Of a stretch of 64,000 nucleotides of DNA, positions 7,482-63,701 are shown in pieces (positions within the stretch are counted from its first letter, which is position 1; each line of letters begins with the position of its first letter). Made by a program: the position numbers and the translations under genes. Source of the DNA: Thiomicrospira sp. XS5 (GTDB taxonomy: Bacteria > Pseudomonadota > Gammaproteobacteria > Thiomicrospirales > Thiomicrospiraceae); assembly GCF_001507555.1 (NCBI RefSeq), contig NZ_LQBO01000001.1, forward strand, positions 434,001-498,000, in the 5' to 3' direction. The notes beneath the pieces are model-generated. The model worked only from the letters and a program-made list of their open reading frames with translations. It ran no database searches and was not told the DNA's origin.

Positions 7482-7522
7482 AACGACCAAGCCCGGGTGG
7501 TTTATGGCATCTTTTGATTGGA

Positions 7523-8926
7523 TTATTTCTTTAAATCGAGTGTGCAAGCAATTGGATTTCTGTTGGTACGGCGCTGTTTGCGCTTGAAAAAGCCATAAGG
7601 TAAAAGGCCGATTAATAAGGTCAAAAATCCGTAAAATGCCACTTCGGGCCGACTGTAGAGGGTATAGCCCAAAATCCAAAAATTGCCGCCGATAAACGTT
7701 AGCGGAATCCAGGGATAGCCCGGTGTTCGGTAGGGGCGTTTAAGGTCTGGGCGATTGCGGCGCAAGACCATTAATCCAGCTACGGTTATAATCGCCGACA
7801 GCGACAGCGTAAATCCGATGTAGATGAGCAGAGTGTCGTAAGCGGACAGAATAATCATGACGATTGCAATGGCCGCTTGTAACAGAATCGCAGCGGCGGG
7901 CGTGTGGCGGGTTGGATGAATGCGCCCGAAATGATCGGGAAAAAGCCCATCCTGCGCCATGGCAAAATACACTCTCGGTCCTGCCATGATCATGGCGCTC
8001 ATTACCGACAGTAAGCCAAATGCAATGGCGGCAGAGAACCAGAAAGCGATTTTCGAATCAAAAAGCGCGGTCGCGGCCGTCTGGCCAATGTCGAGTTGCC
8101 CGGCCATTTGTTGCGGCGGCAAGGCGTATAAGTAAAGTAAATTGAGTAGAAGGTAGAGTACCAGCACGAAAAGGGTTCCGGCAATCAGAGCCCAAGGAAG
8201 GTTCTTTTCTGGCCGATGGATTTCGCTGCCGAGATAGGCCGCGGCATTCCATCCGCTGTAAGCGAAGGAAATAAAAATCAGCGCGACGGCAAACGATGAA
8301 AAATCAAATTCCGCAGAGACCGATCGCGATGGCCGGAAATGCTCGAAATCGCCGTCTCCGAGTGTGAATCCCAAGATAATGAATAAGACTATGAAACCGA
8401 CTTTATAGAGGGTCAACAGGTTTTGTATGCCTTTACCGATGTGTACGCTGTGCAGGTGAAGCAGTGAAAAAACCACAACGGCGGCAACGGCGAGCAGGGT
8501 GACCGGCGACAGTTGGATCCAGTCGTTTTCCAGTAAGGACAAACCGGGTTCTGACAGAGAGGTGCCGCCGAAAAAATAGGTCGCAAAAGCAATGGCGGCT
8601 GCAGCGATGGGCGCGGAAAACCCGACGATTAGCGAAATCCATCCCGATAAAAAGGCTGGTAAATCGCCGTAAGCGGATTTTAGATAAATGTATTCGCCCC
8701 CCGCTTCTGGAAACATGGCCCCTAATTCGGCATAACAAAAGGCACCAATCAACGCGAACAAGCCACCGATCAACCAAGCGGCCAATAGTTGTTCCGCCGT
8801 ATTTAATTCGCTCATCACAAAACCGCTGGTGGTAAAAATGCCACTGCCCACCATATTGGCGATGACGAGAATTGTGGCGGAGAAAAAACCGATTTGTCGT
8901 TTGAGCTGGGGAGCGTTTTCGGTCAT
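7523..8926 (-). CDS. APC superfamily amino-acid permease
   Basis: 467 residues with about 12 hydrophobic segments. The substrate-binding helix motif GSGIFTTSGF is at residues 27-36, with EAGGEYIYLK further on, both typical of APC transporters. The substrate cannot be told from sequence. Its start overlaps the stop of the exported methylase-like gene by 4 bp (ATGA), so the two are translationally coupled and placed in the iron-region operon. A role in moving an amino acid or amine related to that pathway is only a guess. Confidence 0.85.
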   Translation of the reverse strand: MTENAPQLKRQIGFFSATILVIANMVGSGIFTTSGFVMSELNTAEQLLAAWLIGGLFALIGAFCYAELGAMFPEAGGEYIYLKSAYGDLPAFLSGWISLIVGFSAPIAAAAIAFATYFFGGTSLSEPGLSLLENDWIQLSPVTLLAVAAVVVFSLLHLHSVHIGKGIQNLLTLYKVGFIVLFIILGFTLGDGDFEHFRPSRSVSAEFDFSSFAVALIFISFAYSGWNAAAYLGSEIHRPEKNLPWALIAGTLFVLVLYLLLNLLYLYALPPQQMAGQLDIGQTAATALFDSKIAFWFSAAIAFGLLSVMSAMIMAGPRVYFAMAQDGLFPDHFGRIHPTRHTPAAAILLQAAIAIVMIILSAYDTLLIYIGFTLSLSAIITVAGLMVLRRNRPDLKRPYRTPGYPWIPLTFIGGNFWILGYTLYSRPEVAFYGFLTLLIGLLPYGFFKRKQRRTNRNPIACTLDLKK

Positions 8927-9771
8927 TGCACCGAAGTACCGATGTACAACAGGTGTGCAGGCAATTTTTCACCACCGGTGCGTTCGACGATATTACCGAT
9001 CGTTCCGCGCCAAACACGTTGTTTCGTTTCGTATCCTGCCAGAGCGACAATGGCAACTGGCGTGGTTTCCGGCAATTCAAAAGAGAGTCGTTGTATCGTA
9101 TCCGACAGGTTTCGGTTCATGAATAGCACGAGTGTCGTTCCACGTTTGATGGAATTGACGGCTTGTTTTAAACCGGCATCACTGTGTAATTGAAAAGCTG
9201 CGGTTAAGCTGACCGTTTGATTAGCGCCGGACATCATGCTTTGGCCCAAAGCGGCATTGGCCGCATTGAAACTCGACATACCGGGAATGATGATGGGATC
9301 CAGGTCGGCGAATTCCGTCATATAAGCGATGTGGGGACCAAAAATGGTTGGATCACCGTGTTCGATAACGGCGACGTTTTGGCCTTCTTCAATGGCATTG
9401 CGTACCGCTTGACGTACTTTTTTACGTTGAGATGCGAGTGCTTCGGGTGATTTTCTCATTTTTGGCGGTAGGTTTTTTGGCTGCACTTCTCGGAATAGCA
9501 AATGCCCGGCGTCCATAATGACTTTGCCCTGCAGTTCGTTTTCAAGCGGGCCGGGTTTTCCGCCCATGATCAAAACCAGATCGGCTTTCTGCAAGGTTTT
9601 TTGGGCCTTTAAGGTCATGTTGTCCGGGTCGCCGCTGCCGACACTGACCAGGTAAAGTTGTCCTTGAGATGCGGTTGACGTTGTTTGACTCATGGCCATT
9701 GCGGAAAACCCGGCCAATAGGCCGACAATTAAGGTGAAAAATGCGCTGAGTTTAAAATGAATTCGATGCAT
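8923..9771 (-). CDS. Exported tetrapyrrole-methylase-domain protein
   Basis: 282 residues. Residues 38-68 match the N-terminus of the tetrapyrrole (corrin/porphyrin) methylase fold (YLVSVGSGDPDNMTL...ADLVL), and GDPTIFG at 139-145 matches its second SAM-site loop. The first 27 residues form a signal peptide or anchor (FFTLIVGLLAGFSAMAMS). Ordinary members are cytoplasmic, so export is unexpected because SAM is not known in the periplasm. It follows the TonB receptor gene by 66 bp and is coupled to the permease. It may bind a tetrapyrrole or a corrinoid/haem-like ligand instead of methylating it. The domain call is firm; the function is open. Confidence 0.75.
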   Translation of the reverse strand: MHRIHFKLSAFFTLIVGLLAGFSAMAMSQTTSTASQGQLYLVSVGSGDPDNMTLKAQKTLQKADLVLIMGGKPGPLENELQGKVIMDAGHLLFREVQPKNLPPKMRKSPEALASQRKKVRQAVRNAIEEGQNVAVIEHGDPTIFGPHIAYMTEFADLDPIIIPGMSSFNAANAALGQSMMSGANQTVSLTAAFQLHSDAGLKQAVNSIKRGTTLVLFMNRNLSDTIQRLSFELPETTPVAIVALAGYETKQRVWRGTIGNIVERTGGEKLPAHLLYIGTSVQ

Positions 9772-9837
9772 TGTTAATGTCCTAAGTATTGGATTAATGA
9801 TTGAAAATCGACCCGAATTATTCAGGTCGGTTGTCGA

Positions 9838-12096
9838 TTAGAAACGGTAGCTGGCTTCAATTCGGATATCGCGACCCGGTTCCGGTGTAGCGGAGTCGTC
9901 GTCTCCCGACGAGGCCTGACTGCTGTACTGCTCGTTAAAAATATTGTTGACGGCGAGTGCAATTTCCAATCCTTTCAGTTGATGCGGTTGCCATTGCAAC
10001 TGAGCGTTGTGCAGGGTGTAGCCGGAACGATCAATGTCGTCGCGTTTCAGGTCGGCAACGTATTTGAGGGTATAACCCAGTGAAATGTCGGAAGTGGCTC
10101 GCCACAGGTTGTCCCAAGCAATCGTGTCACCCATTGAGGCAGCCATGCGTCGTGTGAAAGCAACGGCCTCGCCGTTTTGTTCGGTATCGGCGTGTGTGAA
10201 GCTCAGGTGAGTATCGAACGGATCGGTCCACCAATCGACACGAATTTCATAGCCCTTAGTGGTGATGGGGTCTTCATTGTAAAAGCCAGTGACCGGGAGG
10301 CCTCTTTGCCCACCGATTTGTGCGATTAGGTTTTCAATACGGGTGTCGAAAAGTGAGACCTGTGTTTTGAAACGGTCATTGGCCGTCATTAGGTTGGTCT
10401 GTTCGAAACGCAGTCCATATTCGGTGGTTTCGGATTTTTCGGGTTTCAGTGATTTGCCATAACGGTCTTTTCCAGGTTCTTGGTTGATGGTGGCGTTGTC
10501 GACGGTGTCTGCCAACCAACCAATGGGTACGATACCGGTCATGCGGTTGGCTTCACCGTAGGAGGCAAAACCGGACAGTCCGTAACCGAATTCAGCATCA
10601 AGTCCAACATTCGGGGAGATGGCGGTATCGGTTAAACGGGTATTACCGTATCGAGTGTCGAAATCGTCGAAACGCGCTCCAAAGGAGACCAATACCGGTC
10701 CGGCTTGCATGCGGTCTTGAAGGTAAAGTCCCTGTGTTTTGACACCGACATGGGTGCCAGTTTCTTGGCCATCGTCCCAGACGTGACCGTCTTCTTCGGT
10801 ATAGTCGGCACCGACCGTCAGGGCGTGGTTGGTTTGACCAATGTCAAAGCGGGCAATGTTTCGTAAATTGACGCCAAGGCCGTCACTTTGCATTTTGCTG
10901 GTTTCCCGTTTAAGCGAGTTTTCGCTCCAATAGGCGTTGATTTTCCAATCGACCCAAGGGTTGTTTTCCGGCGTATAGCGATGGTCAATGATATAGGTCG
11001 TGCGTTCGGTTTTTTGGTGTGTCGGCACGGCGGCTTTGCTACTGGTGTAATCCCAGTCCCCGGTGTAAAGTCCTTCATCTGTGTAGTTTTCCGCACTGAC
11101 GCGCAAACTGTTGTCTTCAAGATCCAATAAACTGAATTTGGCGAAAAGGTCTTTTTTTTCACCGTTGGAACCGTTGATTTTATCGCCGTTTCCGTCTTTG
11201 TATTCGCTGTAATCGTAATCGGAATAATGGACGAGAAGTCCGGCATGTTCGCCGAATTGGCCGTAAGCGGATCCGCCTTTTTTCCAGCCTTCGTCAACGG
11301 AGTTGTAACCCGCTTTCAGACTAGCGCCAATACGTTCGCCAGGATTAAGCATGTCTTGGGCGTCTACAGTTTCAAAACGAATACTCCCGGCCAGTGCTCC
11401 AGGCCCTTGATCCGCGCTGGGCAAGGTTTGCACTTCAACCTGCTTTAGGAGATCTGGATCTAGGGTGCCGATATTACCCCGGTGTTGAAACAGGTTCATG
11501 CCTTGAGATGCGCCGTCGAGAGTGACGTTGAGGTTGCTCCCTTCTATGCCGCGTAAATAGAGGCGTTCAGCAGCGGGTGATCCGCCGCCAATTTGGATGG
11601 AAGAATCGTTTTTAAAAACTTCTGCTTCATCTTTGGCTTGAAATCGTTCAATTTCATTTAAGGATAAATCGCGTGATTCGAAGCTGCGATTGAGTTTGCT
11701 GTCGGTTGTGACTTCAATGGTGCTTAGAACATTGTCGCCGGCATAGTCTTTTGAGTTGATGGTGACACGTTTTTCGTCGTTGAAGTGAGCTTTAAGCTGA
11801 GATCCTTGCAATAGTTTGGCAAGGCCTTGTTTAACGGAAAATTGTCCGTTCAGACCTTGTGTGGTTTGCCCTTCGAGTAAGGCACCGTCCACGCTGAGCA
11901 GCAGACCGGAGGTTTTGGCAAAATCAGCCAGTGCCGTTGACAATTTTCCGGCCGGAATCTGATAGCTTTGTACGGTGGAAGTGGTTTCGGCAAAGGAAAC
12001 AGTTGGCGCTAAGGCCAGTGAACCTGCGGTGACGAGCAATCCGCTTTGAAGCGCTAATGCTCGCCACAAACGGTTTTTCTGAGTTGTGGGTTTCAT
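9838..12096 (-). CDS. TonB-dependent receptor with N-terminal STN signalling domain (FecA-like)
   Basis: 752 residues. A signal peptide ends near TVSFAETT. Residues about 40-115 form an STN domain (YQIPAGKLSTALADFAKTSG...QGLNGQFSVKQGLAKLLQGS), the periplasmic part that talks to a FecR-type anti-sigma factor. Next come the plug (IEVTTDSKLNRSFESRDLSLNEIERF, LYLRGIEGSNLNVTLDG) and a 22-strand-type barrel ending in aromatic YRF. It should import a ferric siderophore or other metal chelate using TonB energy. A matching FecR/FecI pair lies at 15-16.6 kb. The ligand is unknown. Confidence 0.9.
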   Translation of the reverse strand: MKPTTQKNRLWRALALQSGLLVTAGSLALAPTVSFAETTSTVQSYQIPAGKLSTALADFAKTSGLLLSVDGALLEGQTTQGLNGQFSVKQGLAKLLQGSQLKAHFNDEKRVTINSKDYAGDNVLSTIEVTTDSKLNRSFESRDLSLNEIERFQAKDEAEVFKNDSSIQIGGGSPAAERLYLRGIEGSNLNVTLDGASQGMNLFQHRGNIGTLDPDLLKQVEVQTLPSADQGPGALAGSIRFETVDAQDMLNPGERIGASLKAGYNSVDEGWKKGGSAYGQFGEHAGLLVHYSDYDYSEYKDGNGDKINGSNGEKKDLFAKFSLLDLEDNSLRVSAENYTDEGLYTGDWDYTSSKAAVPTHQKTERTTYIIDHRYTPENNPWVDWKINAYWSENSLKRETSKMQSDGLGVNLRNIARFDIGQTNHALTVGADYTEEDGHVWDDGQETGTHVGVKTQGLYLQDRMQAGPVLVSFGARFDDFDTRYGNTRLTDTAISPNVGLDAEFGYGLSGFASYGEANRMTGIVPIGWLADTVDNATINQEPGKDRYGKSLKPEKSETTEYGLRFEQTNLMTANDRFKTQVSLFDTRIENLIAQIGGQRGLPVTGFYNEDPITTKGYEIRVDWWTDPFDTHLSFTHADTEQNGEAVAFTRRMAASMGDTIAWDNLWRATSDISLGYTLKYVADLKRDDIDRSGYTLHNAQLQWQPHQLKGLEIALAVNNIFNEQYSSQASSGDDDSATPEPGRDIRIEASYRF

Positions 12097-12209
12097 GGTT
12101 TTCCTTTTAATTTTCAGTAAATGTAAATCGTTTCCATATGAGAAGCCGTACGAAAATTAAAAAAGGGAACTGGGTTGATCGGTTTTATGAGGTTTTTTTG
12201 CCTGTTTAG

Positions 12210-12310
12210 TTAACCCGAATATTTTATAAATTTGCACCGAACTTGCTTGATCCTTGTGAAACCAATGCGCTGCGCAATCTCAGCACAAATTCATGAAACA
12301 TTCGGGTTAA
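12210..12310. repeat. Intergenic repeat family B, copy 1 (101 bp)
   Basis: Bounded by TTAACCCGAAT (12210-12220) and its exact inverse (12300-12310). The inverted arms continue imperfectly for about 27 bp (consensus TTTYATRAATTTG). A second copy lies at 27071-27237. This copy sits between the TonB receptor promoter region and the end of the PepSY-flavoprotein gene. It has no coding potential and is MITE- or REP-like. Confidence 0.75.
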
Positions 12311-12320
12311 GTGAAAAACG

Positions 12321-12330
12321 CCAGGCCTGG
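12321..12330. repeat. Intergenic CCAGGCCTGG copy
   Basis: The core is preceded by AAAAACG, so on the minus strand it reads core + CG + T-run. It lies just after the PepSY-flavoprotein stop (12349) in the direction of that gene and could assist termination there. Confidence 0.6.
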
Positions 12331-12348
12331 TGGTAACCGTTTAAAATT

Positions 12349-14757
12349 TCAATAAATGTCACGCAAGTAGCGGTTATGCGCCAAAAGCGTTTGGTAATCG
12401 GTAGGGGACAAGATGCTTTGCAAGGCATCGTCGACGGCTTTAGCCATGGTATCGGCGCTGCCACACACCAAAATCACCGCACCTTGCTGGACCCAGCTTT
12501 GAATCTCTTCCCCGGCCTCGCGCAGCTTATCTTGAACATAGCCTGCCTGCTCGCGGGAAAAGGCTGTGGTCAGTTTTTCAAGCTGACCGTTTTTTAGCCA
12601 GCCATTCAACTCGTCTTGATAATAGAAATCAGAGGTTTGGTTGCGTTCACCGAATAATAACCAGTTTCGATAATGGCCGTGCTGGACGCGTTGTTGCAGA
12701 TGAGCACGCAAACCGGCCAGTCCGGTGCCGTTCCCGATTAAAATCAAAGGGCCGGAATGGTTGGTATCGAGATGAAACGCGCTGTGGGACTGAATGGTCA
12801 GATAGGCGGTTTGGCCGAGCGTGAGTGAATCCGTGAGAAAACCGGACCCTTTTCCAAGTGTATTGTTCTCAAAACGCACTTGACGTACCAAAAGCTGTAA
12901 GCCGTCGGTTTCCGGAATGGAGGCGATGGAGTACTGACGCGTCGCGGTGGTTTGGTCGTCTTTCAGGGTAAGTTCAACCAAATCGCCCGCTTGCCAATCA
13001 ACGGTTTTTGCATTGGCCGGTTCAAAGCACAAATGGTAGGTCGGCATGCCTTGGCTGCCGGGGTTGAGTAAAGTGCGTTCGGTTAAGCGCCATTCATCCG
13101 GTTCCGCGATTAAGGATACTTCTCGATTTCCGCCGAGCTGAATCAGCAAATTCTGCCAGGCCTGGAGGTTTTTCGGATTTAATTTATCGACCGTCGTACA
13201 AGGTTGAAGGGCGGTTGCGCCGCTTTGGCGCATCCAGTTATCCAAAGCCAAACCAAAGGTACAGAAATGCTCATAATGGCTGTCACCCAATGCCAGTACG
13301 GCAAATTGAAGGTCGGGTTTGAAAGCGGTTTCGGCTTTAAGGTGTTTGGCAAAACGTCGGGCGCTGTCCGGCGCTTCGCCTTCTCCAAAGGTGGAGGCAA
13401 TCAATAAAACCAGGGACTTGTCGGCCAGTTGTTCGGGCGTTAATTCCCCCAAACCGGTCAGGGCGGTTGCTCGGTCGGTGTCCTGTAATATTTGCCCGGT
13501 CAACCAGGCCAGTCGTTCGGCACTGCCGTTTTGGCTGGCATAGACAATCACCGTGTCCGCCTGTGCCAGCGGCACGGTTTTGAGGTTGGCTTGTTGTTTG
13601 GCTTCACGACGCAGTTTGGCGGTTTTGCGACGATCCATATACAGCATGAAGCCGGTAATGCCGAACAGGGGTAATGATAAGGCGGTGATGAATAATAGAA
13701 TGCGTCCAGGCAGGCCGAAAAACTCGCCAGTATGTAAAGGTAACATGCTGGACATGATTTTTTCGTTAAAGGCTTTATCTTCATAACGTTGGTGTTTGAC
13801 AGCTTGCCAGTTTTTTCCTTCTAGAACTAATGTGTTTCGGGCGCGGGAATGTGCCGGCTGTGGATCAAAATATTGGAATTCGTAGCGGTTGGTGTTTTTG
13901 GGCAGTCGTAAAGTGGCGTGGCGGTATCCATTTGTGGCAAGATGTTGTTCAAATGCCTGCCAGGCCTGGTCGATTTGCATTGAATTGGCTTGGTTTGATG
14001 ATGGCCCGGCCGGTTGTTTTCGGGGTGAGGGTTTGGCCTGTTTGGAACCGCCGCGTACCGGTTTTGGTACGCCGGTGATGGCGTAGAGGCCACTCCGGTA
14101 CCAGTCGTAGGACCAGTAAAGTCCAGTGAAAGAAGCCAGTAATAGAAAAATCAGTACCCAAGTGCCGATGACGGCATGTAGATCGGATAAGAAGCTGCGC
14201 CCGGTTTTTTGAGGGTTGAAAGTTAACCAGGTTTTGAGACGGTGCCAGGTTTTCGGCCATCGTAGATAGAGGCCTGACAGCACCAGCACGATTAAAGCAA
14301 GCGTGGAAGCACCGACGATTTGTTTGCCGGGTTTATCCAGTAAGAGCCAACGATGCAGCGCCATAACCGTATGAAAAAAATCGTGACCGACTTCATCCTG
14401 CCATCGTACTTGACCGGTATAAGGATCGACATAGCGGGTTTCGCCGCGTCGCGCCCGTTTGCCGGTGCCGGGCAATGCAAAATTAACGCGGGCCGCTTCG
14501 AAAGGGTTTTTCGAAAACGTCAGGGCGTTCACGGTTCGATCGGGGTGGGATGTTTGGATGCGAGTCAACAAAGTTTGCGGCGATAGCCGAGTGGCGTTAT
14601 CTTGCGGTTGAACCATCATTAAATCCGTGTTTAAGGCTCGGATGATTTCACGTTCGAATGATAAAATTGCCCCGGTGGTGCCGACAATCATCAGGATCAG
14701 GCCGGCGGTGATTCCAAAGATCCAATGAATTTGGAACCAGGCGTTTTTAAATGTCAT
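12349..14757 (-). CDS. PepSY-membrane / flavodoxin / FAD-NAD(P)H reductase fusion
   Basis: 802 residues from ATG at 14757, chosen because AAGGA lies 7 bases upstream; an in-frame codon at 14793 would add 12 residues. The N-terminal half is a PepSY-type transporter-associated protein with about four membrane helices (WIFGITAGLILMIVG, YVDPYTGQVRWQDE, LLDKPGKQIVGAST). The C-terminal half is a flavodoxin domain (VIVYASQNGSAERLAW) and an FAD/NAD(P)H module (RQYSIASIPE, LILIGNGTGLAGLRAHL), as in sulfite-reductase flavoproteins. Such fusions are thought to reduce ferric siderophores or pass electrons across the inner membrane. Three-part build and siderophore context agree. It holds two CCAGGCCTGG copies (13156, 13960), both read Gln-Ala-Trp. 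Confidence 0.9.
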   Translation of the reverse strand: MTFKNAWFQIHWIFGITAGLILMIVGTTGAILSFEREIIRALNTDLMMVQPQDNATRLSPQTLLTRIQTSHPDRTVNALTFSKNPFEAARVNFALPGTGKRARRGETRYVDPYTGQVRWQDEVGHDFFHTVMALHRWLLLDKPGKQIVGASTLALIVLVLSGLYLRWPKTWHRLKTWLTFNPQKTGRSFLSDLHAVIGTWVLIFLLLASFTGLYWSYDWYRSGLYAITGVPKPVRGGSKQAKPSPRKQPAGPSSNQANSMQIDQAWQAFEQHLATNGYRHATLRLPKNTNRYEFQYFDPQPAHSRARNTLVLEGKNWQAVKHQRYEDKAFNEKIMSSMLPLHTGEFFGLPGRILLFITALSLPLFGITGFMLYMDRRKTAKLRREAKQQANLKTVPLAQADTVIVYASQNGSAERLAWLTGQILQDTDRATALTGLGELTPEQLADKSLVLLIASTFGEGEAPDSARRFAKHLKAETAFKPDLQFAVLALGDSHYEHFCTFGLALDNWMRQSGATALQPCTTVDKLNPKNLQAWQNLLIQLGGNREVSLIAEPDEWRLTERTLLNPGSQGMPTYHLCFEPANAKTVDWQAGDLVELTLKDDQTTATRQYSIASIPETDGLQLLVRQVRFENNTLGKGSGFLTDSLTLGQTAYLTIQSHSAFHLDTNHSGPLILIGNGTGLAGLRAHLQQRVQHGHYRNWLLFGERNQTSDFYYQDELNGWLKNGQLEKLTTAFSREQAGYVQDKLREAGEEIQSWVQQGAVILVCGSADTMAKAVDDALQSILSPTDYQTLLAHNRYLRDIY

Positions 14758-14989
14758 TTTGTTTTCCTTGTGCAAGCGTGTCGAGCGAAGCACCAGTTGA
14801 AATCGGTTTCACAATGCATTCACCATGAAGTTGACGCATGATAAGCTTTCGGGCACCTCGAATAACCCCGGTGGATTCTGGCAACGCCAAGTTCGTCAGA
14901 TCAAGGCATGGCGTTGGCTTCGGTTTGGGCTCAAATTGGCGCTCATCTTTGAATAAAGCCGAAACAGATTTGAAAAAGGGAACCGTCAA
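14747..14989 (-). CDS. Small protein, possibly HemP-like
   Basis: 80 residues if the TTG at 14989 is used; no ATG is available before the conserved-looking part and no clear ribosome-binding site is seen. The stretch STGVIRGARKLIMRQLHGE resembles the G-x-R-x-L-x-I-x-H-x-G core of haemin-uptake protein HemP, but the usual RLT-x-x-GKLILTK ending is missing. It overlaps the start of the PepSY-flavoprotein gene by 11 bp and sits in the FecR-to-receptor interval, where HemP-like genes are common. It may be a chance ORF. Confidence 0.35.
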   Translation of the reverse strand: MTVPFFKSVSALFKDERQFEPKPKPTPCLDLTNLALPESTGVIRGARKLIMRQLHGECIVKPISTGASLDTLAQGKQNDI

Positions 14990-15091: not shown

Positions 15092-16060
15092 TCATGGAAA
15101 AATCTGCCAGGCCTGATGTTGGTTTTGATGGATATCCAGATTTAAGGCATTGGCAACAGATTCCAATGTCTGTGAGAGGTTTCGGGTGGAGAAGGTGCCG
15201 ACCAATCGACGCTGATTTAGCCGTTCATCCAGTTCAATATTGTGCTTGGAGTAACGTTGCAATTCTTCAATGAAATCAATCAATGGCCAGTTGTCGACCA
15301 CGAGCAGGCCTTCGGTCCAACTGGACCGGAAAGACTCTGCTTTTTCAACCAGACCGATGGCCGTGGCTGTGAAATGCACTTGCTGACCGGGTTGTAATGT
15401 TTGTTTTTGCCCGTGTAGATTTTCAATGTCGACTTGGCCGTCGAAGACCGCGATGATGGTATTTTGAAAGCCGCTACGAACGCTGAAGCGGGTGCCTCTG
15501 GCCGTCATTTGACCTTGTGCCGATTTAACGAACAGTCTACGTGGAGTTGGTCGATAATCCGGGGCGGTTTGTACTAGAATTTCGCCGTTTCTCAAGTAAA
15601 CACCGCGTTGTTGCGCATTGTAATCGATATCGACGCAGGTGCCGGTATTAAGCCAGACTTGTGATTGGTCGGCCAATTGCAGTCGGTCGTTTTGGCCGAT
15701 ATCGGTTTGGTATTGTGCCGATAAGGCGAGGATTTGAAAGGCTAACTGTTCAGCATAGTGTGATTGTGCCAAATAGCCGGCGCCAAACAGGCCGAGCAGG
15801 CCGACGGACAGCTTTTTCAATGCCGCTCGTCTCCCCATGCCTTTGGGCGCGTTTAATGCGGCCCTCGCCAGGGTCGGGTCGAGACCCGACAGGTGTTTTC
15901 CGGCTTGCTCAACCCGTTGCCAAGCTTGGCCGTGCTTTGGGGATTGATTCAACCAACGGTGCCAATCGTTTTTGTCTTTTTCACTGACCGACTCGTCGTT
16001 TAAAATCGCATACCATTCGCAGGCAGAGGCCAGGGCGTGGTGTTCGTGTTCTTTATTCAA
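15092..16060 (-). CDS. fecR: FecR-family anti-sigma / transmembrane signalling protein
   Basis: 322 residues. The N-terminus has the DUF4880/FecR-N pattern (ACEWYAILNDESVSEKDKNDWHRWLNQSPKHGQAWQRVE), followed by one membrane helix (LSVGLLGLFGAGYLA near residue 90) and the FecR domain (YQTDIGQNDRLQLADQSQVWLNTGT, ARGTRFSVR). The C-terminus is an STN-like subdomain. FecR proteins relay occupancy of the TonB receptor to the ECF sigma factor. It overlaps the sigma gene by 8 bp. The matching STN-bearing receptor is at 9838-12096. Confidence 0.93.
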   Translation of the reverse strand: MNKEHEHHALASACEWYAILNDESVSEKDKNDWHRWLNQSPKHGQAWQRVEQAGKHLSGLDPTLARAALNAPKGMGRRAALKKLSVGLLGLFGAGYLAQSHYAEQLAFQILALSAQYQTDIGQNDRLQLADQSQVWLNTGTCVDIDYNAQQRGVYLRNGEILVQTAPDYRPTPRRLFVKSAQGQMTARGTRFSVRSGFQNTIIAVFDGQVDIENLHGQKQTLQPGQQVHFTATAIGLVEKAESFRSSWTEGLLVVDNWPLIDFIEELQRYSKHNIELDERLNQRRLVGTFSTRNLSQTLESVANALNLDIHQNQHQAWQIFP

Positions 16061-16574
16061 CGGCTTTCTCCTCGTCCGCAGCGAGAATACAAGCCATCAT
16101 GGCTTGGGCCATGTATTTCTTGACCATGCGTTCGCTGACGTCCAGCTTGACCGCGATTTCACGGTATTTCAAACCGTCGAACTGAGCCATCATGAAAGCC
16201 CGGCGGGGTTTTTCCGCTAAGCTCGATAAGGCTTGGTCGATTTTGAGCAGGGTTTCGATGATTCCATTGAGGTGTTCACTTGACGGGGCCGTGGGTTCCG
16301 GCATGGCCGAGATGGCATCCAAATAGGCTTTTTCAATTTCCTCACGTCGCCATTTATCGATTAAAAGGCCTTTGGCGATGGTTGCCAGATAGGCTCGGGG
16401 TTCTTTGCATTTCAAGCATTGGCCGGATTTTCTCAAAATTCGGACAAAGGTATCCTGTGTCAGGTCTTCTGCTGTGTGTGAGCAACCGGCACGATGACAA
16501 ATCCAGCCTTGCAGCCAGCTTTGGTGTTCGGCATATAAGGTGACGACGGGAATACGATTCAGTTCTTCACTCAT
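16053..16574 (-). CDS. fecI: FecI-like ECF sigma factor
   Basis: 173 residues from ATG at 16574; an upstream in-frame codon at 16619 would add 15 unlikely residues and run into the Fur-like palindrome. Region 2 is visible (AEDLTQDTFVRILR, EPRAYLATIAKGLLIDKWRR), and region 4 (EKPRRAFMMAQFDGLKYREIAVKLDVSERMVKKYMAQAM) matches iron-starvation sigma factors. It should direct transcription of the TonB receptor unit when FecR signals. Overlap with fecR shows coexpression. Confidence 0.93.
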   Translation of the reverse strand: MSEELNRIPVVTLYAEHQSWLQGWICHRAGCSHTAEDLTQDTFVRILRKSGQCLKCKEPRAYLATIAKGLLIDKWRREEIEKAYLDAISAMPEPTAPSSEHLNGIIETLLKIDQALSSLAEKPRRAFMMAQFDGLKYREIAVKLDVSERMVKKYMAQAMMACILAADEEKAVE

Positions 16575-16608
16575 AGCGGAAAATATAAGGTAATGCTGAT
16601 AAAAAGTA

Positions 16609-16627
16609 AATGATAACACATATCATT
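16609..16627. promoter_or_regulatory. Candidate Fur box upstream of the ECF sigma gene
   Basis: AATGATAACACATATCATT is a near-palindrome (ATGATA-n5-TATCAT) resembling the Fur consensus GATAATGATAATCATTATC. It lies 35-53 bp before the sigma-factor ATG on the minus strand, where a repressor would block the promoter. Iron control of FecI-type genes by Fur is well established; the assignment here is by similarity. Confidence 0.55.
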
Positions 16628-16821: not shown

Positions 16822-17757
16822 ATGAAAACATTATTTTTAGCCGGAGCGGCTTTTTTGGCGACGGCACTTTTGACCGGTTGTGGAGGCTCTAGCAGCAGTA
16901 GTACGGATGATGGCAGCGATACTCCGGCATCTCAAGAAACAACGCTGAAAATTCCCTTTACGGCTGTGACCGGTGAAACCGAAATCAGTTGTGGAACCCC
17001 TGTGAGTGGTTTGGGTTCATCGGATACGTCCGGTGAATTTCAGTATGCCGCCTGGTTTGTGTATGACGTTAAATTGGTGACGGAAACCGGGGATGTCGAT
17101 ACGCAATTGATTGAAAATGATTTTCAAAACGCCGATTACGATTTCGCCTTTTTGGAATTCCGAGACATTCTTGGTGGGTGTACGCATGCCGATCAAGAGC
17201 CCTATCCAACCAACAGTATGCTGACATTGACAGCCAATGTGGATGCTTCTCAAGTAAAAGGCGTTAAGTTTAAATTGGGCATGCCTTATGAGCCGAACCA
17301 TACTGTTGAAAATAAATTTCAACAGGAAAAAGCCTATTACGCCATGTTGTGGAACTGGCAGGCCGGTTTTCGTTTTATGCGTGTTGACTTGATTCCAGAC
17401 GGTGGGTTTACGCAAGGCGGCACTTTGTATGAAGACACCACCTTTAACTTTCACCTGGGTTCAACCGGCTGTGAGGGCGATCCGGTTGCATGTGTGCAAC
17501 CGAACAATACAACGGATTTTGTTTTAACCAACGATCAGTTTGTGGTGAATGAAAGCGGTACCGGCACCAAGGTTAAATTTGATTATGCCGAATTGGTGTC
17601 CGGCATGGATTTGACGGTGGATGAAGGCGGTTCAAAAGGCTGTATGTCGGCTTTGCAGGATCCGGAATGTACGCCGATGTTTTATAACTTAGGCATTCCG
17701 TTGGGTGACAAGGTCGGTCGTACCGATCAGCAGGTTTTCTCGCTTCAGTTGAACTGA
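16822..17757 (+). CDS. mbnP: MbnP-like copper-binding lipoprotein (metallo-mystery pair, four-Cys family)
   Basis: 311 residues. Lipobox L-T-G-C at 17-20 is followed by a serine/acidic linker. The mature part has the family's conserved cysteines (C57, C120, C217, C224 and a later pair in KGCMSALQDPEC), and tryptophans at 177 and 179 in AMLWNWQAGFRFMRVDL. In characterised pairs, MbnH oxidises a Trp of MbnP to kynurenine, creating a copper site. The gene sits 3 bp before the di-haem partner. AAGGA precedes the ATG by about 9 bases. No methanobactin precursor was found nearby, so this is a stand-alone copper module. Confidence 0.88.
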   Translation: MKTLFLAGAAFLATALLTGCGGSSSSSTDDGSDTPASQETTLKIPFTAVTGETEISCGTPVSGLGSSDTSGEFQYAAWFVYDVKLVTETGDVDTQLIENDFQNADYDFAFLEFRDILGGCTHADQEPYPTNSMLTLTANVDASQVKGVKFKLGMPYEPNHTVENKFQQEKAYYAMLWNWQAGFRFMRVDLIPDGGFTQGGTLYEDTTFNFHLGSTGCEGDPVACVQPNNTTDFVLTNDQFVVNESGTGTKVKFDYAELVSGMDLTVDEGGSKGCMSALQDPECTPMFYNLGIPLGDKVGRTDQQVFSLQLN

Positions 17758-17760
17758 TCC

Positions 17761-18939
17761 ATGCCTCGCCTTGCTTTTTTTGTACTGCTTTTGACTTTGA
17801 TCGCCGCGCAAACCGGCTGTCAGGGCATGAGCAGTGAAACCACGATTTCCGACCCGTCCGGCGATGCCGACGGGTCGTTTGATTGGAATGTGCCCAAAGG
17901 GACGCCTTTACCGGTGGTGCCCGACGATAATCCGGTCACGGAAGAAAAATTCCAACTTGGACGACATCTCTTTTACGATGTGCGTTTGTCGGGCAACGGC
18001 ACGAAATCCTGTTCGTCCTGCCATTTACAGCATTTGGCTTTCAGTGACGGCGTCGCACGTCCAAGTGGTTCCACCGGCCAAATGCATCCGAGAAATTCAC
18101 AGGCGTTAGTGAATGTCACTTATTTTCCAACCTTAAACTGGGCCAATACGGCGACAACACGGCTTGAACTGCAAATTCCGGTGCCTTTGACCGGTGATGA
18201 TCCGATTGAATTGGGTGTCAATGAAACCAACAGTGAAGAAGTGTTGGATCGTTTTCGTCAAGATGAACGTTATCAGCAGCTTTTCGCAGACGCTTATCCA
18301 GACGAAGAAGACCCTTATGACTTCCATAACATCATCTACGCTCTGGCGACCTTTGTACGGGGTTTAAACAGTTTTAACAGCGATTATGACCGTTATCAGC
18401 AAGGCGATTCCAATGCGTTGACGGAATCGGCCAAACGAGGCATGAACTTGTTTAACGGCGAGCGGTTGGAATGTTTTCATTGTCATGAAGGCATTACGTT
18501 CAGTAATGCTTATCGTGATCGTACACAACAAAGGCCCGTGCCGATCGAATTCTTCAATAACGGTTTGTATAACCTGGATGCAAACGGGAGTTATCCCGAA
18601 GGCGGTGAAGGTTTGTTTGATATCACTCAAAAGTGGTCGGATATGGGTAAATTTCGTCCACCAAGCCTGCGAAATGTCGAGTTGACGGCTCCCTATATGC
18701 ACGACGGTTCCAAAGCGACTTTAGAGGAGGTTGTTGCGCATTATGCGGCAGGTGGCACTGTGACGGAATTCGGACCGAATGCCGGAGACGGCCGTTCCAA
18801 TCCCAATAAAGCGTCGGAAATTGTCAGCTTTGATATTACCGAAGCGGAAGTGAACGATTTGGTGAATTTTTTAAAAAGCCTGACCGATCATGACTTCATT
18901 AATAACCCGCGTTTTTCCAACCCGTTTTTAGAAGAATAA
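17761..18939 (+). CDS. mbnH: MbnH-like di-haem cytochrome c peroxidase family enzyme
   Basis: 392 residues. Two haem c motifs are present, CSSCH at 84-88 and CFHCH at 238-242. The surrounding pattern (LGRHLFYDVRLSGNGTKSCSSCH, AFSDG, FRPPSLRNVELTAPYMHDGS, LEEVVAHYAAGG) is that of the MauG/CcpA-like family. The N-terminus ends in a possible lipobox (AAQTGC20). It should act in the periplasm, taking electrons from the Trp of the adjacent MbnP. Gene spacing of 3 bp upstream and 5 bp downstream marks a tight three-gene operon. Confidence 0.9.
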   Translation: MPRLAFFVLLLTLIAAQTGCQGMSSETTISDPSGDADGSFDWNVPKGTPLPVVPDDNPVTEEKFQLGRHLFYDVRLSGNGTKSCSSCHLQHLAFSDGVARPSGSTGQMHPRNSQALVNVTYFPTLNWANTATTRLELQIPVPLTGDDPIELGVNETNSEEVLDRFRQDERYQQLFADAYPDEEDPYDFHNIIYALATFVRGLNSFNSDYDRYQQGDSNALTESAKRGMNLFNGERLECFHCHEGITFSNAYRDRTQQRPVPIEFFNNGLYNLDANGSYPEGGEGLFDITQKWSDMGKFRPPSLRNVELTAPYMHDGSKATLEEVVAHYAAGGTVTEFGPNAGDGRSNPNKASEIVSFDITEAEVNDLVNFLKSLTDHDFINNPRFSNPFLEE

Positions 18940-18944
18940 ATTGT

Positions 18945-20147
18945 ATGCAATATGTTTTATGGATTTGTCTGGCATTGATATGGTCGTTCAATGCGCAGGC
19001 ACATGGTGTGAATTTGGCGCCTCAGGATACCGAATACGCCATTTGGTCATCGGCGAGTTTCACGTGGAACTCTAATGGTGCTGTAGGGAATAATGAATAT
19101 TGGCGTATTCCCGGTTTGATGATGGGCGGCGATGCGACGCCGGCCAAGGAAGGTTTGAATCTGGATGATGCTTTGTTAGGCGGTCACTATGCTTTTAACG
19201 ATAAAGCGAAAGTGACGGCAAAACTTGGCGTTCACAGTGATGATGGCGATCATCATGCGGCTGTGAATCTGGAAAATTTGTTTGTCAGTTATCAAATGGT
19301 CCAGTCGTTTGGTGTCTCCTTAGGGCAGATGGAAGCAAATTTTTCGCCCACGGCATCGTATCATGCCAGTTTGCAACCAATGGCCGAAGCGCCTTTGGTG
19401 GCGGACGCCTTTTGGGGTCGAAGCTTTCACGATGTTGGAGTCAATGCCGTTTGGAAGCCGGTGCCCCAATTGACCATCGGCCTGGAAGCCTGGGACGGTC
19501 AGTCTTTTCCGGCAACACCCGGCGATCAAGGCGGCGCCCAGGATATTTATCTGCAATGGTTACAACATTGGCAAGGTTGGCATTTACAAGCCGGTATCTG
19601 GGGAATGCGAGCCCAGGCTTATCAACGAGGGGATGACCGTTATACAGCGGGGCATTCGCACAGTTCGGACTTTGAAACCTTACCGACCGACGTTCGTTTT
19701 ACCGGCGATACGACGCTAACGGGGTTGTGGCTACAGGTAATGACACCGACTTGGCAGGCCTGGCAGTTTCAATTGTTGGCGGAACTGGTGCATTCTGAAT
19801 CGGATGGTGACATTTTGGATGCGACGCGTCAGGCAGATTACACCAATGACAACTATGGGTATTATGTGATGCCCACTTTGGTATGGGGCAATCATCAATT
19901 CAGTTATCGTTATGAAATGTTGTATTTAAAAAATGACGTGACTGGTGCGGCGGCGGGAATTTTGGCTAAAGAGGCGAATTTGATCAATGATAAAGACCCA
20001 AGCCGGCAAACCGTGCAATGGCGCTGGCAAATGAGTCGAAATTTCGCCTGGCGTTTGGCCTACGTGTATGACGATACACTCCCTGAATCCACCGAGCGGT
20101 ATAGTTTGGGTGTGGTTTGGCAATCATTATTATTCAGTTCGTTATAG
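18945..20147 (+). CDS. Outer-membrane beta-barrel-like protein of the mbnPH operon
   Basis: 400 residues with a cleavable signal peptide (ALIWSFNAQA-HG). Alternating hydrophobic/polar strands, abundant Trp/Tyr and Gly (QDIYLQWLQHWQGWHLQAGIWGMRAQAY) and a C-terminal aromatic strand (YSLGVVWQSLLF) indicate a beta-barrel of the outer membrane. His-rich loops (DDGDHHAAV, AGHSHSS) could bind metal. It is the last gene of the mbnP-mbnH operon and may let copper or the substrate cross the outer membrane; that role is inferred from context only. Confidence 0.7.
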   Translation: MQYVLWICLALIWSFNAQAHGVNLAPQDTEYAIWSSASFTWNSNGAVGNNEYWRIPGLMMGGDATPAKEGLNLDDALLGGHYAFNDKAKVTAKLGVHSDDGDHHAAVNLENLFVSYQMVQSFGVSLGQMEANFSPTASYHASLQPMAEAPLVADAFWGRSFHDVGVNAVWKPVPQLTIGLEAWDGQSFPATPGDQGGAQDIYLQWLQHWQGWHLQAGIWGMRAQAYQRGDDRYTAGHSHSSDFETLPTDVRFTGDTTLTGLWLQVMTPTWQAWQFQLLAELVHSESDGDILDATRQADYTNDNYGYYVMPTLVWGNHQFSYRYEMLYLKNDVTGAAAGILAKEANLINDKDPSRQTVQWRWQMSRNFAWRLAYVYDDTLPESTERYSLGVVWQSLLFSSL

Positions 20148-20227: not shown

Positions 20228-21103
20228 TTACATCATCGGATAGATGGACGCCAATTTGTCGAACTGTTCTTTGGTGAGGATTTTCTTCATGTTATCCCGA
20301 CAGTCGATTTTGGTTTCCGCTACCTGACGGCGCAATGCCAAGGTTTTCTCGAACTTTTTCATCAATTCCGCTTTGGATTCACCGGCCAAAGCATCTTGAA
20401 TCAACTCTTTTTCTAAGGTTTGGATTTCATTAAACAGGCGAGACATTTCCTGGCTGTGGGCCTTTGGCCAAGCTTTGATTTGAGTGACTTGTTCGGCACT
20501 TAAACCCAGTTCAGCCGCATTTTTGACGGCAATACCGGTCAGATTCGGCAGCGCCGGATTGGCGTGCATCACCAAACGCATGGCATGGCGGTTCTGGCCG
20601 TTACTCAACATTTTTCCGGACATCATGCCTTGTTTCATGTGGCCTTTTCCACCCATCATCGGTTTCATTAAGGGGCGACCGATGGCATCGATGGTTTTGG
20701 TGGAACCATCGTCAAATGTCAGGTCGATTTTAATGTGTTGGCCCTCTTTTACCGGCTCGGTAAGGTTGATCAGCATGATGTGCAATCCACCGGGTTGCAA
20801 AGCGGTTTTCTGGCCGGCCGGCAAGTCGATTTTCGGCACCTGGCGCATGCGCATCACGCCGTTGTCGTGAATGTGGGTGTGCAGTTCGGTGACCTTGTTG
20901 ATGTAAGCTTTGGCCGAAACCAGAGCATGGTCTTTGGAACCGGTATTGTCTATCACCATAAACGCGGCGGTGGCTGGCGCGCCCGGCGGCACCATCCGAA
21001 CGTAAGGATTTTCGATTTTAATGCTGTCGGCAACACTGGCGGCCCAAGCTTGGGCGTTGAGGCCAAGGCTGATGATTAGGGCGAATAAAACAGAAGGCTT
21101 CAT
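20228..21103 (-). CDS. PCuAC copper chaperone fused to a Spy/CpxP-like domain
   Basis: 291 residues from ATG at 21103, which has AGGAG 6-7 bases upstream; a TTG two codons earlier is less likely. A signal peptide ends AQAWAA. Residues about 25-150 are a PCuAC domain with the copper ligands spread as H-M...M...H-x-M (ELHTHIHDNGVMRMRQV...GGLHIML). A Met-rich linker (MMGGKGHMKQGMMSGKM) leads to a helical C-terminal domain with LTKEQFDKL, as in the periplasmic Spy/CpxP/LTXXQ family. PCuAC delivers Cu(I) to cytochrome oxidase in the periplasm; the extra domain may sense or buffer metal. It converges on the mbnPH operon. Confidence 0.85.
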   Translation of the reverse strand: MKPSVLFALIISLGLNAQAWAASVADSIKIENPYVRMVPPGAPATAAFMVIDNTGSKDHALVSAKAYINKVTELHTHIHDNGVMRMRQVPKIDLPAGQKTALQPGGLHIMLINLTEPVKEGQHIKIDLTFDDGSTKTIDAIGRPLMKPMMGGKGHMKQGMMSGKMLSNGQNRHAMRLVMHANPALPNLTGIAVKNAAELGLSAEQVTQIKAWPKAHSQEMSRLFNEIQTLEKELIQDALAGESKAELMKKFEKTLALRRQVAETKIDCRDNMKKILTKEQFDKLASIYPMM

Positions 21104-21213
21104 GTACAACTCCTATTGCAATGATTAAATGGTGAAAAACCCGCCCGACGGCTACGGCAGGCGTTGGTTGTGTCATTTTATGGGATGTTCGAGTTCGCCA
21201 TTCAGTTTAGCCT

Positions 21214-27070: not shown

Positions 27071-27237
27071 TAACCCGAATATTTCACAAATTTGCACCGA
27101 CCTTGCTTGCTCCTTGATTCCACAAGAAATATTTTCTCAGTCGGTCGTAATCACGGATACGACACTTCTTCGAAAATTTCCTTGTGAAACCAATGTTCCG
27201 CGCAATCTCAGCACAAATTCATGAAACATTCGGGCTA
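27071..27237. repeat. Intergenic repeat family B, copy 2 (167 bp)
   Basis: Same outer arms as 12210-12310 (TAACCCGAAT at 27071, ATTCGGGCTA ending at 27237). It carries 68 extra bases in the middle, bounded by CCTTG direct repeats (27112-27116 and 27180-27184), so copy 1 looks like a deletion derivative or this one holds an insertion. The right arm contains the TAG stop codon of batD (27235-27237). Confidence 0.75.
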
Positions 27238-28914
27238 AGATTCGTTTGGGTAAATCGGTTCCAGTTTCTGGCCGGAACCGGTTTTGGCGGGCGCGTTTTG
27301 CGCTTGGCGTTGCAGGTGTTGGATTTCCGCACAAATGTCGGCCAGCGTCTGCGGCGCCAGCGGTTCCTGATGATACAGATGCGCCTTAAGGCGCTGTAAG
27401 TCCGTCAGCAGACGATCGCTGCTTTCAATGGATGCTTGTTGCTGCCAAGCCAAAACGGCGCGGTACACTGATTTGGCGTCCAATTCCGCTTCATCACAGA
27501 CCGTGTCCATTTCCGGCGATTTTGACCAGGCCTGGTCGTTTTTCAGATTGGCGGTTTCCGTTGGTTCGCTCGGTAAATTTTGCAGTGCCCGACGCCATTT
27601 CAGTGCATACCAAAGCGTTATCAACCACAATCCCAGCAGCAGAACACTGAACCAGGAAACCGACCAAGTGGTTGAATCCGTTGTGGATGTTTCACGTGAA
27701 ACGGTTTCATGGGTTTCCGGCAAAGTTGCGGTATCAAAGGTGTTGCTTTGAGATGTCAGCGCCGGTAACACCGTCAGGGTTTTGGCTGGTAGCGTAATGG
27801 TTTCCAGCGTGTTTTGTTCGGTGTTCCACCAGTGCAGGGTCAGCTCCGGCAATACGATGTCTCCCGGTTCGGTCGGAACGATGGCGAGCTTTTCCACCTT
27901 CTGGCTTTGCATGCCGTTTTCGGTGGCCTGGTTATTGGTGTGGGGCTGATCCGGATAAATATGGAAATGCGCCTGCTCTTTGAACTGGAAATCCGGCAGT
28001 TGCGAGGCCAGGAGTCCATCCGCTTGCAGGGTCAGAGTTCGCGTAATGGAGTCGCCGACCCGAATCGGATTCGGGGTTTGCCAGTCTTCGATGAGGCGAA
28101 CCTCTTTGGCCGGTAACCAGGCGGATTGCGCCGGATAGGTGTCCGGTTGCGGTTGTACATTCAATGCAATCGGCTGGGTTTTATCCTGCACCAGTTTCAG
28201 CACGCCGCGGTATTGAATCCGGCCGTTGAAGCTTTGCGGCGGAATGGTCATGGCACCGCTTTTTTGCGGGTAGAAGGCCCAGGTCCATTCATAGACTTCG
28301 TACAGTTTTCCGCCGATACGCTTTTGGTAATTGAATTGGTTGCGGATGTTCTGGGTGATGGCGTGGTCGAAACTCGGCGGGCGGATATTACCGTTGAGGA
28401 ACTGGCCGAGATGATAAAACCGCAGGGTGAAGAGCACTTCCTGTTGCACATAGGGTTCCGTGATGTTCACGCTGGATTCGAGAAAGCTGCTGCCCAGCTG
28501 ACGTGAATCCGCTTTCGGCGCTTCCGAAACATGCAGCACGATTGGGTCGCTGAGCGCGCCGTCGACATTGAATGGGGGAATCACCAGATCGCCGGCTTGT
28601 TTTGGCGTGAGGCGCACGTCCCAGCGGGAATAAGCCTGATAGTTGCCGTTGACGATTTGAATCTGACTGCTGCGCTGGCTGCCCAGTAGTTCGAACTGGT
28701 CCTTCAAGCTATTGAAATCCGGCGAGTCGAACGTCTGGAAATCGGTTTTCACCACCAGGGTGATGATGTCGCCCATTTCGGCGTCCTGATGGTCGATTTG
28801 CGCGGTCACACCGCGGGCAAACGCCTGGCTGGTCACCAACAGGATGAGAATCAGTGCCAGGGTAATCAGAATCACCCTTTTCAAGTATCGGCGAGTGTGT
28901 GCTTGTGTCATCAT
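27235..28914 (-). CDS. batD: BatD-like protein (aerotolerance operon), copy 1
   Basis: 559 residues. A signal peptide ends TSQAFARG. Repeated beta-sandwich segments follow (AEMGDIITLVVKTDFQTFDSPDF, EPYVQQEVLFTLRFYHLG, VGDSITRTLTLQADGLLASQLPDF), typical of BatD. One membrane helix (WSVSWFSVLLLGLWLITLWYALKW) and a cytoplasmic tail complete it. It would sit in the inner membrane facing the periplasm with the VWA proteins of the operon. The CCAGGCCTGG copy at 27526 reads Gln-Ala-Trp. The stop codon falls inside a family B repeat, so the last residues may have been altered by insertion. Confidence 0.88.
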   Translation of the reverse strand: MMTQAHTRRYLKRVILITLALILILLVTSQAFARGVTAQIDHQDAEMGDIITLVVKTDFQTFDSPDFNSLKDQFELLGSQRSSQIQIVNGNYQAYSRWDVRLTPKQAGDLVIPPFNVDGALSDPIVLHVSEAPKADSRQLGSSFLESSVNITEPYVQQEVLFTLRFYHLGQFLNGNIRPPSFDHAITQNIRNQFNYQKRIGGKLYEVYEWTWAFYPQKSGAMTIPPQSFNGRIQYRGVLKLVQDKTQPIALNVQPQPDTYPAQSAWLPAKEVRLIEDWQTPNPIRVGDSITRTLTLQADGLLASQLPDFQFKEQAHFHIYPDQPHTNNQATENGMQSQKVEKLAIVPTEPGDIVLPELTLHWWNTEQNTLETITLPAKTLTVLPALTSQSNTFDTATLPETHETVSRETSTTDSTTWSVSWFSVLLLGLWLITLWYALKWRRALQNLPSEPTETANLKNDQAWSKSPEMDTVCDEAELDAKSVYRAVLAWQQQASIESSDRLLTDLQRLKAHLYHQEPLAPQTLADICAEIQHLQRQAQNAPAKTGSGQKLEPIYPNES

Positions 28915-28951
28915 GCGTTACCGTTTCGTCGTTCAATCGTATTGTAAAGCG

Positions 28952-33421: not shown

Positions 33422-33441
33422 GCTGAAATCCTTGCGGTGGT

Positions 33442-34425: not shown

Positions 34426-34535
34426 TGGGCGTTCCATTTGATAAAACAGGGTTGTGATTCGGTTTCGTCGCCGTTCCGGTGAGGTTCGCACCCGCGCTTG
34501 GCCGGCGTTTCGGTCTTTTATGATTCGCGCGCTTT

Positions 34536-48079: not shown

Positions 48080-48133
48080 ATGGGTTTCGCATTGGGACGT
48101 CCGCAACCTCACGGAGCAAAGGAATCATTATGA
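48080..48133 (+). CDS. 17-codon leader-like ORF coupled to moxR copy 2
   Basis: ATG at 48080 has AAGGA 7 bases upstream. The ORF encodes MGFALGRPQPHGAKESL and its TGA overlaps the moxR ATG (ATGA). The moxR gene also has its own ribosome-binding site (AAAGGA) inside the ORF. It could be a translated leader that couples to moxR. It is very short and may be chance. Confidence 0.35.
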   Translation: MGFALGRPQPHGAKESL

Positions 48134-49131: not shown

Positions 49132-49141
49132 GGGGACGTCA

Positions 49142-57305: not shown

Positions 57306-63701
<6,396 letters not shown>

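Follow-up and report, generated by a model that had tools for sequence, protein, structure and literature searches.

What is a tetrapyrrole-methylase-fold protein doing behind an apparent export signal, among genes for outer-membrane uptake? To our knowledge, this fold is regarded as strictly cytoplasmic, owing to its SAM dependence. The question is raised by a gene in the 64,000-nucleotide stretch of the Thiomicrospira sp. XS5 genome that we analysed as a whole (hereafter, the window), for which an original prediction, made from the sequence alone, proposed a periplasmic derivative that handles an imported ligand.

A tetrapyrrole-methylase-fold protein with an export signal in an iron-type operon

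The gene is an intact ORF of 849 bases (8923..9771, minus strand) coding for 282 amino acids, of which residues 39–261 match PF00590 (TP_methylase; 122.5 bits against a Pfam cut-off of 27.8). Both motifs that had been singled out as typical of the fold are present: VSVGSGDPD begins at residue 42 and includes the core motif GSGDPD (residues 45–50; 9622..9639, minus strand), which corresponds to GAGPGD of CysG. HGDPTIFG (residues 138–145; 9337..9360, minus strand), which in CysG/CbiF contributes to the SAM pocket, contains a GDP triplet that is near-invariant across the exported family described below. The preceding residues 1–26, MHRIHFKLSAFFTLIVGLLAGFSAMA (9694..9771, minus strand), followed by MSQ, comprise a positive n-region, a hydrophobic stretch and an AMA cleavage site, with the best 19-residue Kyte–Doolittle mean (2.0) at residue 8. 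By hydropathy and visual inspection, the criteria also applied to all other family members, this N-terminus reads as a Sec-type signal peptide, like the N-termini of 42 of 44 family members, which bears out the export signal originally proposed. The mature protein lacks cysteine. Eight bases upstream of the ATG lies an AGGA Shine–Dalgarno-like site (9780..9783, minus strand), and neither of the in-frame ATG codons at M25 and M27 is preceded by such a site.

As predicted, the gene is flanked on the same strand by a TonB-dependent outer-membrane receptor upstream and an APC permease downstream. The receptor (9838..12096, minus strand; PF00593, PF07715) carries an STN signalling domain (PF07660), scores 253.4 bits against the haem-receptor model TIGR01785, under the cut-off of 316.85, and lacks the FRAP/NPNL haem-receptor motifs. 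The permease (7523..8926, minus strand; PF13520) is LAT/SLC7-like, with BasC (6f2g) and human LATs as its closest solved relatives, and its ATG overlaps the methylase stop codon (ATGA). The permeases retain the G-x-G and YSGW motifs; in APC transporters, these contact the backbone of the bound amino acid. Further upstream, a fusion of PepSY_TM, flavodoxin and FNR domains (12349..14793, minus strand; PF03929, PF00258 and PF00175) is predicted to be an NADPH-driven inner-membrane reductase facing the periplasm, and is preceded by genes for a FecR-type anti-sigma/sensor protein (15092..16060, minus strand; PF04773 and PF16220) and a FecI-type ECF sigma factor (16053..16619, minus strand; Sigma70 domains and FecI models). 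Translation of FecI more likely starts from the ATG at 16574; the FecI of a sister species begins at MSEEL. At the fecI start, a Fur-box-like palindrome, TGATAACACATATCA (16611..16625, plus strand), has three mismatches to TGATAATNATTATCA; nine sites this close to TGATAATNATTATCA occur in the window versus 1.7 expected, and the palindrome is suggestive only as a Fur site. The assignment to an iron-uptake operon thus draws support from the FecI and FecR homologues, the reductase and the palindrome, which together would favour iron as the metal in this organism. No NikK, NikL or NikMQO genes were detected among the scanned neighbours in the window; such genes occur only beside some of the homologues.

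Other parts of the window deserve mention in their own right. Divergent from the fecI operon, on the plus strand (16822–20147), are genes for an MbnP-like copper protein and an MbnH di-haem enzyme, each of which exceeds its NCBIfam cut-off, and for a protein of 400 aa that matches no Pfam family; together with a PCu(A)C copper chaperone (20228–21109), they possibly constitute a copper locus beside the iron-type operon. Two apparently paralogous clusters of MoxR, DUF58 and von Willebrand (Bat-like) genes, recognized by reading the ORFs, are located at 27235–34491 and 48130–55202. At 57306–63701 (plus strand), the window encodes a repeat-rich protein of surface type, 2131 aa in length, that has a long PEPE repeat and two near-identical halves resembling vWA domains by eye.

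A family spanning at least three phyla

Protein searches in the genus, the family, 369 gammaproteobacterial and 398 Pseudomonadota genomes recovered no orthologues of the window protein, matching CysG-type paralogues only. A genome scan with a single sequence produced no matches; viral contigs yielded none with artificial alignments that steered the pattern, and all matches on plasmids were either enzymes of cobalamin or sirohaem synthesis or distantly related receptors. We turned to a fixed-spacing DNA pattern (GDP..G-x17-PG) over conserved positions of the fold, which matched the window alone in 150 genomes and was then scanned over one genome per species, its restriction to one loop length introducing a bias. 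Among the matches listed were eight orthologues with 36–45% identity over 246–278 residues, one with 35% and a distant one with 29%, from Thiococcus, Thauera, Alcaligenaceae, Pigmentiphaga, Desulfobulbus, Syntrophobacterales, Desulfobacterales, Aliarcobacter and two metagenome-assembled genomes; many matches from Streptomyces and Bacillota were ordinary cobalamin-type enzymes. Profile searches detected members in 29 of 247 Desulfobacterota genomes and in two of 200 Campylobacterota genomes, the second of the latter copies being broken by internal stops. Overall, the exported family spans at least three phyla (Pseudomonadota, Desulfobacterota and Campylobacterota), with at least 44 members in at least 40 loci of 9–19 kb (shorter at contig ends). 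The loci were drawn from the pattern scan and from the Desulfobacterota and Campylobacterota surveys, which biases the frequencies, and related loci do not count as independent observations. In the phylogenetic tree, the split between exported and control sequences has moderate support (SH-aLRT 67), and several inner clades are strongly supported.

An N-terminal export signal was recognized in 42 of the 44 members, in two cases lipoprotein-like (L201, with IGC, and L217, with FGC). The exceptions, L109/L222 and L081/L221, come from Pigmentiphaga and Alcaligenaceae; these copies (L109:2062–2832 and L081:6764–7537) reside in Burkholderiales-type genomes. The original prediction had named homologues that start at the core, without a signal, as evidence against itself. 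Such proteins do occur, twice, but both are nested inside the exported clade and stand outside uptake loci, so that the signal and the uptake context are lost together and the two look like secondary, re-internalised forms. They, along with the in-frame ATGs at M25 and M27, are also what could be said for a mis-called start, that is, an ordinary cytoplasmic methyltransferase translated from one of the internal codons. With the Shine–Dalgarno-like site at the upstream ATG only, signals in nearly all homologues and no uptake context around the signal-less relatives, this explanation appears highly implausible.

The family also includes composite architectures. Some members are tandem two-domain proteins (L195, L196, L201 and L202), L197 is a fusion of DUF4198 and methylase domains, and several have an N-terminal Oxidored_molyb-like domain (L227 and L228; the match is weak, below the cut-off, in L227). 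In the latter two (L227:6747–8585 and L228:7395–9197), the tetrapyrrole-methylase domain is fused behind this molybdopterin-oxidoreductase-like domain.

Conserved association with TonB receptors and permeases

We counted neighbours encoded on the same strand within 4 kb in 41 loci, including that of the window, and around 15 ordinary tetrapyrrole methylases, mostly of the genomes that yielded the first orthologues. TonB receptors were found in 34 of the 41 family loci versus one of the 15 controls (Fisher p 2.5e-7), APC permeases in 21 versus none (p 3e-4) and DUF4198/NikK-like proteins in 20 versus none (p 4e-4), the p-values being indicative, since the neighbour profiles were built from the same loci and the loci are related. 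NikL-like proteins accompany ten family loci and none of the controls, and none of the 41 loci has a cobalamin or sirohaem context. The TonB receptor is directly upstream of the methylase in 24 loci, including receptors 34–42% identical to that of the window, and the next downstream gene of the system encodes an APC permease in 11 loci and a DUF4198 protein in nine. The 4-base overlap between methylase and permease is identical in Desulfobulbus (L191), Thauera (L212), Aliarcobacter (L213) and the window. In this survey of neighbours, of the kind proposed with the original prediction, the context of TonB receptor, APC permease and DUF4198 protein recurs among homologues when set against matched controls. 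Given that the same signal, architecture and neighbours recur in homologues from three phyla, the combination seen in the window gene is, on these comparisons, beyond chance.

Other neighbours include ExbB/ExbD/TonB-like proteins, CbiM/CbiQ beside L201 (the single locus with NikMQO/CbiMQO genes), a DUF364 ‘heavy-metal chelation’ protein beside L227 and exported FmdE-domain proteins beside L203 and L215. The NikK- and NikL-like neighbours, together with CbiMQ, would favour nickel or cobalt as the metal in Desulfobacterota. FecI/FecR genes, in turn, are found in the window, where the receptor has an STN domain, and beside L191, as would be expected if the exported protein were a sensor or adaptor of FecR/receptor signalling rather than a ligand processor. 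However, most family loci lack FecI/FecR and many carry metal-transport genes instead, making such a role very improbable.

Several further observations on these loci were made. Exported TupA-like binding proteins are encoded near other members (L203 and L225), and exported nucleoside hydrolases adjoin three more (L220:5363–6841, L230:6253–7740 and L226:6345–7487), two of them being fused to an FmdE domain. In a Syntrophobacterales locus, L215:6501–7304, next to the genes for the exported tetrapyrrole methylase and an exported FmdE protein, encodes a SAM-methyltransferase domain of class I that carries a signal peptide. Elsewhere, homologues of this class I enzyme lack signals, though several are found near FmdE and TonB receptors, and the idea that exported class I methyltransferases play a part more generally is therefore unsupported. 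The receptors of three modules (L216:9996–12146, L210:4629–6776 and L226:3803–5851) have sub-threshold matches to NCBIfam TonB families that take their names from CU, PCPU, PUIUD and FCYXU motifs, in which U may denote selenocysteine.

Receptor, methylase and permease are exchanged as a cassette

We compared the locus with that of a sister species (G002), in which the flanking genes are 95–97% identical to those of the window at the DNA level. The sister species has FecI (96% identity), FecR (65%) and the PepSY reductase (84%) at the same locus, along with a receptor only 26% identical to that of the window and a DUF4198 protein; both the methylase and the APC permease are missing from this locus. 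In a blastn alignment of the window with L250, the segment comprising TonB receptor, methylase and APC permease (7482..12345, ~4.86 kb) corresponds to a mere 38 bases in the sister species, indicating that the three genes were gained or lost together. Such joint exchange is as expected if the methylase serves the ligand of the receptor.

Fold, SAM pocket and enzyme identity

An AF2 model of the window protein, computed from the family alignment of this protein and the listed orthologues, has a mean pLDDT of 80.4 and a pTM of 0.65. Its best Foldseek match in the PDB is precorrin-4 C11-methyltransferase (3nei; E 1.3e-14, TMt 0.77), and the top matches are enzymes of this kind (3nei, 4e16 and 1cbf) plus CysG, with target-normalised TM scores of up to 0.78 against the single-domain enzymes. 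Like CbiF/CobM and the wider PF00590 family (CysG/SUMT, CbiL), the exported family has the complete fold, the GDP motif and the Met/Ala columns of the SAM pocket; it differs from CbiF/CobM in being exported, in the ~18–20 additional residues between the two motifs and in its separate branch in the tree. No NCBIfam model scores above its cut-off for the window protein. Identity with CbiF/CobM is rejected by TIGR01465 (83.1 bits against 259.65), and identity with SUMT/CysG by PRK06136 (73.4 of 198) and the CysG model (76.7 of 400). The genome encodes three PF00590 proteins, namely, one CysG-sized, one RsmI-like and the window protein, and thus lacks a cobalamin pathway in which the latter could be employed; a role in cobalamin biosynthesis was rejected on this ground. 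Borosin-type peptide methyltransferases share the tetrapyrrole-methylase fold; we tentatively set this identity aside, the GDP motif being retained in the window protein.

The residues that we take to line the SAM site of CysG (P225, G301, G302, D303, P304, I306, T331, M382 and G411) were transferred to the family through the genome's own CysG. Across the exported family, the columns of G302, D303, P304, M382 and G411 (as Ala) are within the 15 most conserved of 235, and those of T331 (Ser/Gly) and I306 rank 33rd and 76th, respectively. At the positions of G302, D303, I306, T331, M382 and G411, the window protein has G, D, I, S, M and A, and four of these six columns are near-invariant in the family. 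Methionine occupies the 382 column in 46 of 49 exported domains versus six of 42 controls. The P225 and G301 identities are lost in the window protein and the closest family members; the pocket, which the original prediction had proposed to inspect in a structural model, is otherwise largely intact. In the region of CysG Asp248, the reference reads ADVILYDRL and the window protein ADLVLIMGG, where a counterpart of this aspartate is not apparent by eye.

The strong conservation of these columns implies that the pocket is under strong constraint, which, while short of proof of SAM binding, makes it less likely that the enzyme simply decayed into a binder. The original conclusion that an exported member of the fold would for that reason be a ligand-binding derivative is therefore unsupported, several of the CysG pocket residues being near-invariant. 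Nevertheless, a pure periplasmic binding protein, in which the fold holds a metal chelate or a corrinoid/porphyrin and the old SAM pocket binds part of the ligand, should be considered as a tentative alternative. It would fit the periplasmic location without a methyl donor, the exchange linked to the receptor, the tandem two-domain members, the fusion to the binding-type DUF4198 domain and the loss of the P225 and G301 identities, but less readily the GDP and Met382 columns, conserved as strictly as, or more than, in ordinary enzymes of the fold, or the same core being retained by the two re-internalised cytoplasmic relatives.

The opposite possibility, a true periplasmic SAM-dependent methyltransferase, would methylate an imported chelator or tetrapyrrole, leading to metal release, while the permease supplies SAM or swaps SAM for SAH (or methionine for homocysteine). 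Consistent with it are the conserved pocket columns, especially that of Met382, the translational coupling of methylase and permease in four taxa and the permease motifs, which imply an amino-acid-bearing substrate, such as SAM and SAH are. Furthermore, the L215 cluster includes a second, unrelated methyltransferase domain of class I with an export signal, and the exported nucleoside hydrolases adjoining members in L220, L226 and L230 could be SAH scavengers. By contrast, no clear counterpart of the SUMT catalytic aspartate emerged from the comparison by eye, an exported class I enzyme was seen in one locus alone, and neither a periplasmic SAM pool nor a SAM-exporting APC transporter had a match in the open-access literature. 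We know of neither, and of no periplasmic availability of SAM in general, and consider such an enzyme unlikely. A dedicated extracytoplasmic SAM-methylation system, in which an APC antiporter feeds SAM or removes SAH and the exported enzyme methylates the imported chelate, releasing or rerouting the metal, appears rather improbable.

A proposed role in metal-chelate uptake

We favour, with a probability of roughly 60%, the reading that the window gene encodes a periplasmic member of a distinct tetrapyrrole-methylase-fold family which would act as the ligand-handling part of TonB-dependent metal-chelate uptake modules. It is suggested by the signal peptide, the complete fold, the conserved operon, the exchange with the receptor and the fusion to, or neighbourhood with, NikK/DUF4198- and NikL-like proteins. 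Weighing against it are the absence from the window locus of the DUF4198 and NikL neighbours by which homologues are linked to nickel or cobalt, the loss of the P225 and G301 identities in the closest members and the fact that SAM is not known to occur in the periplasm. Of the original proposal of ligand handling after outer-membrane import, the receptor-tied role is backed by the gene context, the cassette exchange and the DUF4198 fusion. Haem as the ligand is doubtful, given the sub-threshold haem-receptor score, the missing FRAP/NPNL motifs and homologue neighbours that point to nickel/cobalt or iron chelates.

In the scenario we envisage, the receptor would bring an organic ligand complexed with iron, nickel or cobalt across the outer membrane to the periplasm, where the exported protein could bind the ligand in the cleft that holds a tetrapyrrole or corrin in CysG/CbiF and process it using the retained SAM-type pocket. 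The PepSY reductase might reduce the metal, as proposed for HiuB/FoxB (PMC13001220), and help to free it, and the APC permease may import the amino-acid-bearing part of the ligand or exchange an amino-acid-like co-substrate. Within this favoured reading, the processing would probably amount to binding or a reaction other than methylation, real periplasmic methyl transfer being the less probable variant.

Among known systems, the nearest precedent in kind for an exported tetrapyrrole methylase appears to be HmuS, the haem de-chelatase of Bacteroidota, which is a chelatase of the CobN/ChlH type put to new use in an operon for TonB-dependent haem uptake (PMC12583661). In both cases, an enzyme family of tetrapyrrole biosynthesis is reused in a TonB-receptor operon, in HmuS to process the imported ligand; HmuS differs in fold and chemistry, in lacking an APC permease and in that its ligand is known to be haem (PMC12583661). 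HiuABC/FoxB-type systems pair a TonB receptor with a PepSY inner-membrane protein needed for the use of siderophore iron, PepSY proteins acting in the periplasmic use of ferri-siderophores, but neither a tetrapyrrole-methylase protein nor an APC permease is described for them (PMC13001220). The NikKMLQO system (PMC2667541) resembles the modules in that NikK-like DUF4198 and NikL-like periplasmic proteins often adjoin family members, whereas the core of the family is the TonB receptor, the exported methylase and the APC permease. In Caulobacter, DUF4198 and TonB genes belong to the Fur regulon (PMC3751524). In the open-access literature, we found nothing relevant on exported tetrapyrrole methylases associated with TonB receptors or on periplasmic SAM-dependent methyltransferases.

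Together, these comparisons suggest a previously unremarked family of exported tetrapyrrole methylases, in which an enzyme of cofactor synthesis would have been relocated to the periplasm, there to act on metal complexes taken up from outside. The family gives a context for the orphan NikK/DUF4198 and NikL proteins, noted in an earlier survey as lacking a transporter and left unplaced there (PMC2667541). It also hints that metal uptake may include a further step in which the ligand is processed, new in kind but comparable to that of the recently described HmuS. As an exported, receptor- and permease-coupled family in which the SAM pocket is kept, it raises the question of SAM chemistry in the periplasm. 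If extracytoplasmic SAM-methylation proved true, we would know of no earlier example of a soluble SAM-dependent enzyme that works in the periplasm and has a cofactor supply of its own.
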